Source of the DNA: a virus
Strand: one strand, 5' to 3'
Length of the DNA: 26,483 bases
IMG/VR virus record: IMGVR_UViG_3300042113_000282
Span: 1 to 26,483 of that record
Shown here one piece after another: positions 17,517 through 25,360 of this stretch. The position numbers and the translations under genes were made by a program. Numbering within the stretch: the stretch's first letter is position 1; every line of letters starts with the position of its first letter. The notes under the pieces were generated by a model. That model had not been told where the DNA came from and ran no database searches. It was given only the letters and a program-made list of their open reading frames with translations.

Positions 17517-17788
17517 AATTCAGGTTTATAATTTTTCTCAAACCAATGCTCATCAATAGTTATTGTAGGATACTTTTTCTTTAACCATTCACAAGACTTA
17601 ATCCAAGAATTTAAAAATATAGCGTAAACTTCATTGTATTTTTCTGGTGTATCAATGTATGTAAAAACCAACTGAATAAAGTTTTCGTTTATTGGTTTTA
17701 AGTGCTTATACACCTTGAAAGCATTTTGTTCAAAGTGCCTTCTTTGCTCTCTGTTGAGTGTTTGTTCAAATCTTATTGCATCAGACAT
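17513..17788 (-). CDS. Unknown 91-aa helical protein
   Basis: The start MSDAIRFEQTLNREQRRHFE includes the 'LNREQRR' pattern found near the N-terminus of many small phage proteins. The rest is helical and rich in aromatic and charged residues (YIDTPEKYNEVYAIFLNSWI, KSCEWLKKKYPTI). It overlaps the SSB stop region by 8 bases and the transferase gene by 4, so it is part of the same leftward operon and links replication to the glycan cassette. No function is recognised. Confidence 0.55.
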   Translation of the reverse strand: MSDAIRFEQTLNREQRRHFEQNAFKVYKHLKPINENFIQLVFTYIDTPEKYNEVYAIFLNSWIKSCEWLKKKYPTITIDEHWFEKNYKPEL

Positions 17789-18119
17789 TTGGAGAAGATA
17801 CGTTTGGAGATGTGATTAATGAAAATACAGAAATTCTTACATGAAGCTGGGCTTGAATTTCCCCATCATCTTTTTTATATGTTTTTGTTTCCGGCTTTCC
17901 TTCAATGTAACAAGTGCAACCTTTTTTAATGTACTTAACAAGTTCTGTTTTTTCAGTCCACCAAGCACAATGTATCCAAGTTGTTTTGTCTACATAATCA
18001 CCATCGCTGTTTTTGTACCTTTCGTTGTGAGCGACATTAAAATTAATAACTGTTTTTCCGTTCACTTGATTTACTACAGCATCTTTACCGACTTTTGCTA
18101 TACATTCAATTTTCATCAT
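17781..18119 (-). CDS. ssb: Single-stranded DNA-binding protein (OB fold)
   Basis: 112 residues. MKIECIAKVGKDAVV, KTVINFNVAHNERY, KTTWIHCAWWTE and KYIKKGCTCYIEGKPETKTY follow the strand order of bacterial SSB ('G.v..f.vA....', '..W..v..wg.....v.kGs.v.veG.l....'). It coats single strands during replication and annealing. The end SPNVSSPNV lacks the acidic D-D-x-P-F tip by which cellular SSBs call in partners. Two ATGs are adjacent at the start. It follows the primase-helicase with 2 bases between. Confidence 0.88.
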   Translation of the reverse strand: MMKIECIAKVGKDAVVNQVNGKTVINFNVAHNERYKNSDGDYVDKTTWIHCAWWTEKTELVKYIKKGCTCYIEGKPETKTYKKDDGEIQAQLHVRISVFSLITSPNVSSPNV

Positions 18120-18121
18120 AA

Positions 18122-19963
18122 CTAAAATAAATTTTCGCTTGTTTGTGTTTGTGTATTATATGGTTGTTGATTATCTTCAAAGTTAAAATTAATTTTTTGG
18201 TCTTGTAAAATTTTTTGCATAGGGTCAACAGCATTGAAAAGAAATCTTCTCTTTTTGAATAGCATTTCAAATATGAAAAAGCCCTTTTTACCTACAATCT
18301 TTTGCCTTCTGATTTTTTTGCTATGAAATTCACAAGTTGGGTTCTGCGGGTCTGTTTGTGCAAATGGTCTGTGATATATCAAAATATTATCCATTTTGTT
18401 GTTCCACATAGCCCCGTCTGTCAAGTCAAATACATCCGGGCAGGGATAGTTCCCGTCTCCAGCTTTGGTCATTTGTCTTGGGTGTGCAATTATCCAAAAG
18501 AACACATTGTTTATTTGAGCAAATCTTGAAAATACCGAAAGCACCCATTCCAGGTACTTGTCCGTTCTGCCAAACTTTTGATATTCGTTTGTAAGCTGGT
18601 TAAAGGGGTCAATATCGCAACCATCAATGTTTTCCTTAATAATAAGTTCCAAAAATACCTCCATTACATATTGGGGAGTTGGGCTTACATCTTTTGGATA
18701 AACATAGAAAATATGCTTACAAACAAGGTCATAGACATATTCGTAGGTTTCTCTTGAAGGTCTGTTTGGATTATTTGGTGAACAATCGCACCCGAGTATA
18801 ATTTCAACGTAATCGTGGTAGTATTCTTCTGGTGGGTTATCTTCCGGGGCGAAAGAAGCAAACTTTTCTCCGTACATCAACATTCTCATAGCTTGATACC
18901 ACTTCTTGAAAGAACTTTTGCCATAGTTTCCGATACCTGATAGCAAAGTTATTTCCCCTCTTTTTGGCTTAAATCTTTCATCAAGTTCTGGTATGCTTAC
19001 CCCTCCAATTTGTGCATATCCTTCATCATATATTCTTAATGCTTGTTCTTTTACATCAATCCCATAAACAACGTCTTTCAGTTTCAGCCCATCATCATAA
19101 ACGGTATCATCTACGGGTATTTCGCTTTTGGTAACCTTGTCTGTAAGAACTTCCTTGTCAAAAAATGCCGTTCCAAAATTGGAATTATTTGCTTTGTACG
19201 CTGACTTTATTGCCCTCTCCGCTTCGCTATTTGTAAAATCGGAGTTAGTTACAAACTCATAATTAATTAAATTAATCGCTTTTGATTGCTCAATTCCAAA
19301 CCTGCAACAAGCGGAAGCAAGTTTGAAAATGAAGTTGTTTCTCTCCCCTGTTACAAAAGCATCGTTTTTATTGGAAAGCCAAGTTAATATTTTCTTAAAT
19401 ATCTGCTCATCTTCTTGCGTTCTTTCGTATGTTACTTGCTTTTCGGTCTTTTTTACTTTGGTAAATACCTTTGCTTCTGCGTTTATGTAAATCTCCGGGT
19501 CAAAACTTTCGTAACATACCCTTGATACGTTTATTCCAGACCTGTCTATTTCTGGAAAAACATCTTGCAACGCTTGGAAATGTTCCCTGTGTTTTTTTGG
19601 TGAAGCTATCTTAACAAGTGCCTTTAATCCTTTTCCAGACGGAGATACCCAACAAGCGTAAACAAATTCTTGGGATATTATTTCCGTCTGCTTTTCTCTG
19701 ATTTCAAAGACATCATCAAAATCTAAAACTATAAAGCCGCTATGCTGAATTAATTGGTTATCAGTCCTATCGTTGCCAAATTTACCCGAAAAACAAACGG
19801 AAGGAAGGTTTAATTTTAACTTGTTCGCCTTATCCTTGTCTATCGTATTTCGTATCTCGTTTACCGTTTTTTCACTTTTCCCTGATTTTATCCGATTTAA
19901 TGCTTCTTCAACTGAAACGTAAAAAGGTTCTTTGCTAAAAATGTTCTTAAAAATCGTTACCAT
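18122..19963 (-). CDS. Primase-helicase (BT4734/VirE-type N-terminus, DnaB-like helicase)
   Basis: 613 residues in two halves. The N-terminal half (about 45-170) is BT4734/VirE-like: SGFIVLDFDDV (D81, D83, D84) and SPSGKGLKALVKI are the primase-type metal and nucleotide motifs, followed by RVCYESFDPEIYIN. A helical linker (LTWLSNKND, GERNNFIFKLASACCRFGI) resembles primase C-terminal domains. The C-terminal half is a RecA-fold helicase: Walker A GIGNYGKSS (343-351), Walker B CDIDPFNQL (about 449) and a HPRQMTK sensor-type segment. It should unwind and prime at the fork. It lies after the initiator gene with 130 bases between and ahead of SSB. It ends with TAG. Confidence 0.9.
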   Translation of the reverse strand: MVTIFKNIFSKEPFYVSVEEALNRIKSGKSEKTVNEIRNTIDKDKANKLKLNLPSVCFSGKFGNDRTDNQLIQHSGFIVLDFDDVFEIREKQTEIISQEFVYACWVSPSGKGLKALVKIASPKKHREHFQALQDVFPEIDRSGINVSRVCYESFDPEIYINAEAKVFTKVKKTEKQVTYERTQEDEQIFKKILTWLSNKNDAFVTGERNNFIFKLASACCRFGIEQSKAINLINYEFVTNSDFTNSEAERAIKSAYKANNSNFGTAFFDKEVLTDKVTKSEIPVDDTVYDDGLKLKDVVYGIDVKEQALRIYDEGYAQIGGVSIPELDERFKPKRGEITLLSGIGNYGKSSFKKWYQAMRMLMYGEKFASFAPEDNPPEEYYHDYVEIILGCDCSPNNPNRPSRETYEYVYDLVCKHIFYVYPKDVSPTPQYVMEVFLELIIKENIDGCDIDPFNQLTNEYQKFGRTDKYLEWVLSVFSRFAQINNVFFWIIAHPRQMTKAGDGNYPCPDVFDLTDGAMWNNKMDNILIYHRPFAQTDPQNPTCEFHSKKIRRQKIVGKKGFFIFEMLFKKRRFLFNAVDPMQKILQDQKINFNFEDNQQPYNTQTQTSENLF

Positions 19964-20093: not shown

Positions 20094-20867
20094 TTAGTAT
20101 TCGGACACAGGTTTAAAGTTCAATCTTGCCTTTTGAAGGTCGTTTTCGTATTTTTTTTGCTGCGGTTTTGGAATTTCCATCGGTTTGAGGTAGGGAATAA
20201 TGTTTTTAATTTTCAATTTTGGGTTTTTGATTTGTTTCCCATGTCCATCTTTCCATTCGCTTTCTTGCCAAGTTTCAAGTTTTGTTCTCAGCGAATATTC
20301 GTACTTGCTAAAGTCCAAATTTAGCTTTTCAATTTCGGCTTTTCCAAACGCAAGCAAATCATCAAAATTGAATTTTTGGACAAAATGTGTATTATTTGTT
20401 TTTTGTTTAAGTAGAGTATTAGTATTATGTAGAGTATTAGTATTAAGTATAGTATTATATTCTCTTGGTACTTTTGTACCATACCCCTCTGGTACGATTG
20501 TACCATACCCCTGTGGTAGCTGGTGTACCATACCCCCCTTGTTCTTTTGAACCATACCCCCCTTGTTAAATTGCATTGTTATTCGGATAACTCTTTTTTC
20601 AATTTCTTTTGAATTTTCCTTGTAAAAAAATTCAGTCTTTAAATATCCTTTTTTTTCTAAATCGCAAATCAATTTTGACACATAATTAGAGGACTTATTC
20701 ATACCCAAAATGGATGAAAAATACTCATTTGTGGCATAACATTCATCATCAATGTTTGTCAAGTTGCTTATTAAACCAAGTAATATCTTCTGGTTTGGAT
20801 TAATATCCTTTGCCATCAACACCTTTGCGTGAATAACGACTGCCCAATTTTGCTGAATTTCACTCAT
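20094..20867 (-). CDS. Replication initiator-like protein (lambda O / HTH_36-type layout)
   Basis: 257 residues. The N-terminal part (about 1-95) is a winged-helix domain of the HTH_36 sort: HAKVLMAKDINPNQKILLGL, CYATNEYFSSILGMNKSSNY and VSKLICDLEKKGYLKTEFFY. A middle region of low-complexity repeats (GGMV, GYGT units, then N-T-L repeats) is encoded by origin-like DNA repeats. The C-terminal part (about 160-257: FDDLLAFGKAEIEKLNLDFS, WQESEWKDGHGKQIKNPKLK) resembles helicase-recruiting ends. Lambda O has the same plan: DNA-binding N-terminus, origin in the middle of its gene, helicase-contact C-terminus. It lies between the small regulator (ATGA overlap) and the primase-helicase. The initiator role is inferred from domain plan and repeats. 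Confidence 0.72.
   Translation of the reverse strand: MSEIQQNWAVVIHAKVLMAKDINPNQKILLGLISNLTNIDDECYATNEYFSSILGMNKSSNYVSKLICDLEKKGYLKTEFFYKENSKEIEKRVIRITMQFNKGGMVQKNKGGMVHQLPQGYGTIVPEGYGTKVPREYNTILNTNTLHNTNTLLKQKTNNTHFVQKFNFDDLLAFGKAEIEKLNLDFSKYEYSLRTKLETWQESEWKDGHGKQIKNPKLKIKNIIPYLKPMEIPKPQQKKYENDLQKARLNFKPVSEY
20411..20460. repeat. AT-rich direct repeats beside the iterons (probable unwinding element)
   Basis: A perfect 17-base repeat, GTAGAGTATTAGTATTA, is found at 20411-20427 and 20429-20445, and a third, shorter AGTATTA copy ends at 20457. The tract is nearly free of C and very AT-rich. It abuts the iterons at 20467, the arrangement of the DNA-unwinding element of lambda-type origins. It is also coding (N-T-L repeats of the initiator). 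Confidence 0.7.
20467..20560. repeat. Four origin-type iterons inside the initiator gene
   Basis: The core (G)(T/A)ACCATACCCC occurs at 20476, 20500, 20525 and 20549, with periods of 24, 25 and 24 bases. Each is preceded by a dyad: GGTAC-TTTT-GTACC, GGTAC-GATT-GTACC, GGTA-N7-TACC and GTTC-TTTT-GAAC, the last two altered in both arms or in spacing but still symmetric. In the encoded protein, the four copies read as GGMV twice and GYGT twice because the 25-base step shifts the frame, so the DNA and not the peptide is what is conserved. They most likely bind the initiator encoded here. Confidence 0.82.
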
Positions 20868-21149: not shown

Positions 21150-21695
21150 ATGAACAGCACAATAATTCGTAAAAAAAAGCGTTGTATTACCTGTTTTGAT
21201 ATGACTTATATTTTTAGCAAGGGTAGATGTAAAAGTTGTGCGACCATTGAAGATACACAAAAAAGAATTGAAGATTATGAAGATAGTGATGATAGGGAAA
21301 GTTTTCAAAATCTTGTATCAGATTTAGACCAAATATTTTCAGTTTACATTAGAATAAAGTACGCTGATGTAAGTGGAATGGTAGAATGTTTTACTTCCGG
21401 GAAAAAGTACCATTGGAAGCAAATTCAATGTGGACATTTTATATCCAGAAGCAATTTATCTACAAGGTGGTTGGAATTGAACTGTAGACCGCAAAGCGAA
21501 CACGATAATTGTATGCTCAACGGGAACTTGTTAGTATTTGAAAAAAAGCTGAATGAAGAAAAAAGCGGAACAGTAGATTATTTAAGAGAAATATCAAGAC
21601 AAATATCTAAACCAACTATCAGTGAGCTTAAATCTTTGATTATTGAATATAGGTCAAAGGTGAATCAAGCAAAAAAGAAGTTTTTGCAGGGATAA
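21150..21695 (+). CDS. ninG: NinG/Rap-type recombination nuclease
   Basis: 181 residues. The N-terminal zinc ribbon has paired cysteines (C12xxC15 and C27xxC30) and the core reads QCGHFISRSNLSTRWLELNC, then RPQSEHDNCMLNGN: the G-H-F, N-C-R-P-Q and N-N/H-D motif set of lambda NinG (Rap) proteins, with HNH-like histidines. Lambda Rap resolves recombination branches made by the Red system, and this protein likely serves the annealing protein and exonuclease at 22134-23460. It is the first gene of the rightward operon. The start must lie before C12, so ATG 21150 is the only choice. Confidence 0.86.
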   Translation: MNSTIIRKKKRCITCFDMTYIFSKGRCKSCATIEDTQKRIEDYEDSDDRESFQNLVSDLDQIFSVYIRIKYADVSGMVECFTSGKKYHWKQIQCGHFISRSNLSTRWLELNCRPQSEHDNCMLNGNLLVFEKKLNEEKSGTVDYLREISRQISKPTISELKSLIIEYRSKVNQAKKKFLQG

Positions 21696-25019: not shown

Positions 25020-25200
25020 CTAAACCCATAACCCCCCTACCAAAACACAAACACAATGCAACCCACCACCACACCCAAAACACCGACAAGCAAACCACAA
25101 CCACGACCAGCCCCAAACCCACACCACGCAAGACGACACGCAGATAAATGCACGAAAAAAAGGCACCCAAAAAAATGCACCCCCCCCAGTGCAAGAAACC
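25020..25200. other. A/C-only, strongly strand-asymmetric non-coding tract
   Basis: By hand count bases 25021-25200 contain 8 T and 18 G; the other 154 of 180 are A or C. The minus strand is therefore almost purely G/T with runs of G (8 at most). A hairpin TGCAC/GTGCA closes an oligo-C loop (25176-25193), and AAATGCAC occurs twice (25147 and 25174). No adjacent sequence has this composition. A 70-residue frame across it (25056-25268) is low-complexity Pro/Thr/Lys/His and has no credible start signal. Confidence 0.72.
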
Positions 25201-25360
25201 CGAAACCCCAAAATTTGCCAATCGCCAAAATCATAACGGGCGGCTTTAAAACGTTCTGGCGCACTTAAAAATTTTGAAAATTTAGTTTATTTAAAATTTT
25301 GTGATTAATTAAGGTGTTGATATGGCTTTGTTTTGGTAATTTGGTGGAAATCTTTTGGAA
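25201..25360. promoter_or_regulatory. Leader before the rightward late-gap operon, no clear promoter
   Basis: An AT-rich stretch with oligo-A/T. Near-matches to the -7 box (TAATTTG at about 25338) have the wrong spacing. The promoter of the operon that begins at 25361 probably lies here or in the A/C tract, but I cannot place it. Confidence 0.3.

Follow-up and report, generated by a model that had tools for sequence, protein, structure and literature searches.

Initiator gene and neighbouring replication genes

The window, by which we mean the whole 26,483-base stretch analysed here, is a 26-kb fragment of a phage genome and carries on its minus strand a gene for a 257-residue predicted initiator (replisome organizer; 20094-20867) with an HTH_36 winged helix, a disordered linker and a helical C-terminal domain. 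The protein matches Pfam HTH_36 (PF13730) over the cutoff at 7.7e-6 and the PHROGs families phrog_270, phrog_2880, phrog_19658 and phrog_428 ('replication initiation protein'); a PDB sequence search returned generic winged-helix matches only. AlphaFold modelling returned a confident winged-helix DNA-binding domain at residues 14-96 (20580-20828, minus strand; pLDDT mostly above 90), a disordered linker at residues 102-162 and a confident helical C-domain at residues 168-226 approximately. The recognition helix occupies residues 60-72 (20652-20690, minus strand) and includes K65, whose covariation with the iteron half-site (described below) is the strongest of any residue; in the clade of the window this helix has two extra residues at its start relative to 202 other HTH_36 initiators. 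The downstream gene encodes a primase-helicase (18122-19963, minus strand; BT4734-like_N, PriCT_1 and a helicase part), which is the conserved partner of swapped initiators, and a single-strand binding protein lies beyond it (17781-18119, minus strand; Pfam SSB 3.3e-16). A preliminary description of this DNA had proposed a winged-helix gene followed by a primase-helicase and SSB, and Pfam, PHROGs and the AlphaFold model agree with that arrangement.

The named relatives of the terminase and the primase belong mostly to Flavobacterium, Cellulophaga and Maribacter phages (25-38% identity), which places the window phage in the Bacteroidota sphere. Elsewhere in the window, a Pro/Thr/Lys-rich open frame (MQPTTTPKTPTSKPQPRPAPNPHHARRH...) at 25056-25268 coincides with a higher-GC stretch and a C bias on the plus strand. 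GC skew was considered as evidence for an origin and set aside. Its minimum in the window lies at 21,168, near the initiator gene, and coincides with a divergent gene switch; in relatives it falls near the gene in one 69-kb sequence and about 3 kb away in another. Minima were always at or near a divergent strand switch, and the skew is not discriminating because it is confounded by gene direction.

Iteron array and AT-rich tract

Exact copies of the core ACCATACCCC start at 20478, 20502, 20527 and 20551, and the rest of the 26,483-base record contains none, which bears out the four iterons with periods of 24, 25 and 24 that had been described previously. When one mismatch was permitted, five matches were found in the record against 0.63 expected, and at least five occurred in none of 100 shuffles. 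All four iterons were annotated on the plus strand. The first (20467-20487) and the second (20491-20511) comprise the perfect dyads GGTAC-TTTT-GTACC (20467-20480) and GGTAC-GATT-GTACC (20491-20504), respectively, each with an ATACCCC box; the third (20515-20536) has a degraded dyad GGTA...TACC (20515-20529) with the same box; and the fourth (20541-20560) has the dyad GTTC-TTTT-GAAC (20541-20552) with CATACCCC. The earlier statement that every iteron follows a dyad therefore holds fully for three of them and weakly for the third, while the paired change from GTAC/GTAC to GTTC/GAAC in the fourth is real, with both sides of the dyad altered. This fourth iteron is the closest to the part that encodes the winged helix, and its half-site type is also present in the three close relatives discussed below (L001-L003). 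In the clade of the window the dyad arms flank the A-tract more closely, with a centre of 4 bp (AAAA) in place of the 6 bp common elsewhere.

An AT-rich tract, the putative unwinding element, adjoins the iterons as had been claimed, and consists of three 18-bp direct repeats (20407-20460, no strand assigned). Read from the start of the gene, the winged helix comes first, followed by the iterons, the AT tract and finally the C-domain. Residues 103-130 are encoded by the iterons and residues 136-154 by the AT tract. Both stretches belong to the disordered linker, so the putative origin would lie where the protein can accommodate change. Both in 20407-20460 and in the AT tracts of the wider family, T occupies nearly each third base of the coding strand. 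TnnT is the DnaD recognition element of the B. subtilis oriC (PMC10201434); the spacing recalls that element and may be a mere effect of Asn and Thr codons.

Selection on DNA rather than peptide

Translation of the array agrees with the reported peptide readings GGMV, GGMV, GYGT and GYGT. We counted identical 8-mers within 60 bases in each gene and compared the counts with permutations of synonymous codons within that gene, a procedure that preserves both the protein and its codon usage. The initiator gene contained 46 repeat pairs, fifteen of them out of frame, against a mean of about 7, and none of 500 permutations reached the observed number (z 8.4), while the sixteen other genes of the window that were tested were all below z 2.7. 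The positive controls lambda O and 80alpha ORF20 gave z 8.7 and z 4.2, and a comparable repeat excess was not found in their neighbours lambda P and ORF21 by the same test. TP901-1 Rep, whose origin has been experimentally shown, reached only z 2.3.

The array is 25 bases longer in the window than in L001-L003, and 2 further extra bases follow it, 27 in total (9 residues), so that the reading frame of the array was shifted and then restored with the DNA core still exact. The earlier claim of selection at the DNA level is upheld by repeats in excess of what the protein needs and by cores that remain exact across the frame change.

Close relatives

In three IMG/VR loci, L001-L003, the encoded initiator has a best tblastn segment that is 83-87% identical to the window protein. 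No other close relative has a complete array, and the initiator genes of L002 and L003 do not differ from each other. All three arrays contain three copies at a period of 24, in frame, whereas the window has four; the frame-breaking step emphasized in the preliminary description is thus present in the window but not in its closest relatives (24, 24). The AT tract is retained in all three. As to whether homologues keep the iterons, the array itself is kept, but the iteron sequence varies and does so with the recognition helix. The helix NKSSNYVSKLICD is paired with GGTAC iterons (the window, and iterons 2-3 of L001), while TKSSGRVSRLLSD is paired with TTGTTC iterons (L002 and L003, with which the partial L111 agrees). 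The iteron nearest the winged helix is of the GTTC type in the window and L001 also, so the pairing of helix and iteron is not perfectly clean. The mixed array in the linker of L001 (L109), in which a first iteron of the GTTC type is followed by two of the GGTAC type, looks as if its half-sites were undergoing conversion after a helix change.

The wider HTH_36 initiator family

Viral contigs, genomes and phages together supplied 239 HTH_36 initiator genes, of which 205 are distinct. In 93% of the distinct genes there is an array that exceeds the 99% null from shuffled sequence, and about 5-7% of the wider family lack a detectable one. The arrays start at a median of nucleotide 280 of the gene and are spaced at 22, 23 or 24 bases nearly throughout; because these spacings are mixed, steps that break the reading frame are usual across the wider family. 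Iterons occupy the equivalent gene position in HTH_36 initiators of Firmicutes, Fusobacteria and Cellulophaga phages, including four CCTATCACGAAAAA units in the HTH_36 initiator of Fusobacterium phage Funu2 and two GGGGTATGGTTCAAAAAGAC units, nearly those of the window, in an Acetoanaerobium phage. Repeats were looked for and not found in two distant relatives of the domain, the 94-residue protein of Bacteroides C3_41T2LP and Leptospira LE1 Orf5, and the presence of an HTH_36-related domain does not therefore by itself imply an array.

The position of the AT tract is equally fixed. AT content peaks in the 45 nucleotides after the array, at up to 0.88 against a gene mean of 0.67, and the AT maximum of the whole gene lies just 3' of the array in 76% of the family against 10% expected. 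Codons in this segment are biased towards A/T, with AAT accounting for 98% of Asn codons against 71%, and TAT for 98% against 67%.

A record named 'Acinetobacter phage D2SVT' has a match score and identity equal to those of an Enterococcus phage initiator (H102 PQ283533, H103 PQ554527), and is possibly mislabelled or a contaminating sequence.

Covariation of recognition helix and half-site

Once near-duplicates had been discarded (n=119, with automatic and noisy half-site calls), we set the dyad half-site of each array against the recognition helix. In a partial Mantel test, iteron distance was correlated with helix distance when the rest of the domain was controlled (r 0.40; none of 1000 permutations reached this value, maximum 0.15), while the rest of the domain with the helix controlled gave 0.08 and other domain segments of equal length gave at most 0.19. 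The correlation persists when dereplication is tightened and when the commonest half-site is left out. The permutation and Mantel tests lessen the influence of common ancestry without eliminating it. Taken singly, the columns that perform best are two recognition-helix positions, those of K65 and S59 in the window. By eye, the helix motifs pair with half-sites as E-T-I-S-R/TTGAC, H-T-V-S-Q/TGTAC, K-T-V/I-S-R/GTGAC, V-T-I/V-S-R/TTAAC, V-S-I/V-S-K/TTAAAG and K-D-T/AGGC. The simplest reading of this covariation is that helix residues would contact the half-site directly.

These results also bear on whether the repeats might be a minisatellite, made by slippage in a disordered linker and devoid of any DNA function. 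Such an account would suit the disorder of the linker and the variable copy number (four in the window, three in relatives), but it does not account for cores that are exact across a frame change, for a repeat count that no codon permutation matched, for a position and period common to 93% of the distinct genes, or for half-sites that track the recognition helix, together with the paired dyad change in one iteron. We consider it extremely unlikely.

Comparison with known replication initiators

The organizers of the Lactococcus phages TP901-1 and Tuc2009 bind repeats within their own genes (PMC8965321). In Staphylococcus phage 80alpha the essential ORF20 resists complementation in trans, and for this reason the ori is presumed to lie inside that gene (PMC5499656). 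The window initiator resembles TP901-1 Rep (ORF13) in its HTH_36 N-domain (2.4e-5 for TP901-1 Rep), and TP901-1 Rep and Tuc2009 ORF16 in having repeats and a probable origin in its own gene and an ssb in the module; these two differ from it in having a DnaB_2 C-domain and no adjoining BT4734-like primase-helicase. It resembles 80alpha ORF20, a relative of SPP1 G38P, in the succession of winged helix, iterons of about 24 bp and AAT-rich tract within the gene, and has phrog_428 and phrog_270 in common with it, while ORF20 differs by its weak HTH_36 match (0.0098), its Phg_2220_C C-domain and its DnaC-like loader partner. Among Bacteroidota phages, gp41 of Cellulophaga phage phi39:1 is an annotated HTH_36 protein with a helicase next to it, and its gene contains three 21-22-bp ACGACAAAATTGTC iterons; its half-site and C-terminal part are different, and no origin is among the features listed there.

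The preliminary description had likened the locus to lambda. The plan is indeed that of lambda O and ori-lambda, with four iterons and then an AT-rich tract placed midway along the initiator gene and replication genes downstream, but the likeness does not extend to sequence homology with O. Lambda O has the domain PF04492, its iterons are annotated as 18 bp at steps of 20-24 bp, and its partner P is a helicase loader, whereas the window protein matched HTH_36 only in Pfam, with no PF04492, a best blastp E of 0.38 and a phrog_391 (O-like) match of just 0.015. The window combines an HTH_36 N-domain with a 22-25-bp array after the winged helix and inside the gene, an AT-rich tract immediately 3' of that array and an adjacent primase-helicase. 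Judged from these features, the window initiator falls into the HTH_36 replisome-organizer class together with the Firmicutes phage organizers TP901-1 Rep and 80alpha ORF20; since organizers of this class have repeats or origins in their own genes and lambda O belongs to a different family, it is lambda-like in plan only.

Iteron arrays of plasmids can act in partition and incompatibility. By that analogy the repeats could be a centromere or a copy-number handle and not a site of initiation. The sequence of the window protein gave no match to the iteron plasmid initiator families Rep_3 or RepA_N of Pfam at E 0.1, and its fold resembles the N-domains of plasmid-type initiators or Rep proteins, e.g. 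4pt7 and 5kbj, only weakly. A partition role is very improbable, for the array is accompanied by a replication-initiation family member, a primase-helicase, an SSB and an adjoining AT-rich tract, and no partition protein was recognised among the proteins scanned.

A probable phage origin within its initiator gene

We therefore regard it as highly probable that 20407-20560 is a phage replication origin located in the linker region of its own initiator gene and bound by the product of that gene. In the mechanism that we propose, the HTH_36 winged helix would bind the four dyad iterons (half-site GGTAC/GGTTC on either side of AAAA, with G4 boxes as connectors), the half-site being read mainly by recognition-helix residues near K65 and S59. 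Multimers on the array would put strain on the neighbouring AT-rich 18-bp repeats and so open them, the C-terminal helical domain would recruit the primase-helicase encoded next door, and the phage SSB would cover the opened strands.

The same protein-DNA recognition could also serve an operator through which the protein represses or times its own replication operon, with the origin elsewhere. Winged-helix domains are common in repressors, the fold matches of this N-domain are mainly to transcription regulators, and covariation of helix and repeat demonstrates recognition rather than the process downstream of it. An operator would not be expected, however, about 300 nucleotides into the gene and far from its start, nor is it suggested by an AT tract that lies 3' of the array as a family rule, by related proteins that are experimentally replication organizers, or by primase-helicase and SSB neighbours. 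We judge an operator unlikely, though less remote than a minisatellite or a partition site.

Reading the region as an origin provides a precise predicted origin for a group of Bacteroidota-type phages and carries the origin-in-initiator plan beyond the few model phages where it was known, to about 200 sequences in which it can be assessed statistically. The suggested helix-to-iteron code would let metagenomic sequence yield origins matched to proteins. The earlier suggestion that such an origin may be undescribed stands for this kind of phage, in that searches of the open-access literature turned up neither an embedded origin reported for a Bacteroidota phage nor a helix-iteron code described for the HTH_36 family; it does not stand for the embedded-origin class, which has already been reported (TP901-1, 80alpha).

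Proposed initiator cassettes at primase loci

A scan with the primase identified 80 loci, certain of them on contigs 66-70 kb long. Most of the loci have an initiator open reading frame directly upstream. The N-domains of these initiators are of the HTH_36, DUF1376 or Lin1244_N type or are unassigned. Some pairs of initiators have the same N-domain (88-97% identity) with differing C-domains, and other pairs share C-domains (43-65%) without detectable similarity between their N-domains. Each N-domain type has its own repeat DNA in the linker, namely AAGGA at a 5-bp period, GGATAT at 6/12, units of about 11 bp or 24-bp iterons, and most of these repeats are also above codon permutation. In lambdoid O genes the origin and the DNA-binding domain travel together. 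By the pattern of shared and exchanged domains, the origin and the DNA-binding domain appear to move together here also, swapped before shared C-domains and primase, with covariation lending support for the HTH_36 arrays and not for the short-period repeats.

On balance we favour a broader proposal, with less assurance than the origin itself. The HTH_36 initiators would constitute one very large family, with its own origin in the disordered linker of each gene and a few helix residues setting the half-site, and Bacteroidota primase-linked phages would exchange unrelated DNA-binding domains and repeat DNA as interchangeable initiator-plus-origin cassettes. If this is true, a half-site set by so few helix residues would make origin and specificity readable from sequence in phages of Firmicutes, Fusobacteria and Bacteroidota.

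The initiator linkers of L018, L020, L043 and L078 (nucleotides 320-430 approximately) contain repeats at periods of 5, 6/12 and about 11 bp, several of them out of frame, and our guess is that they represent a different kind of origin. In L058 (4749-5720), and likewise in L059, an HNH domain (Pfam HNH 1.1e-11) is situated within the linker of a Lin1244-type initiator beside GGAAAGGAAA-type repeats, and is possibly a homing endonuclease in an origin.
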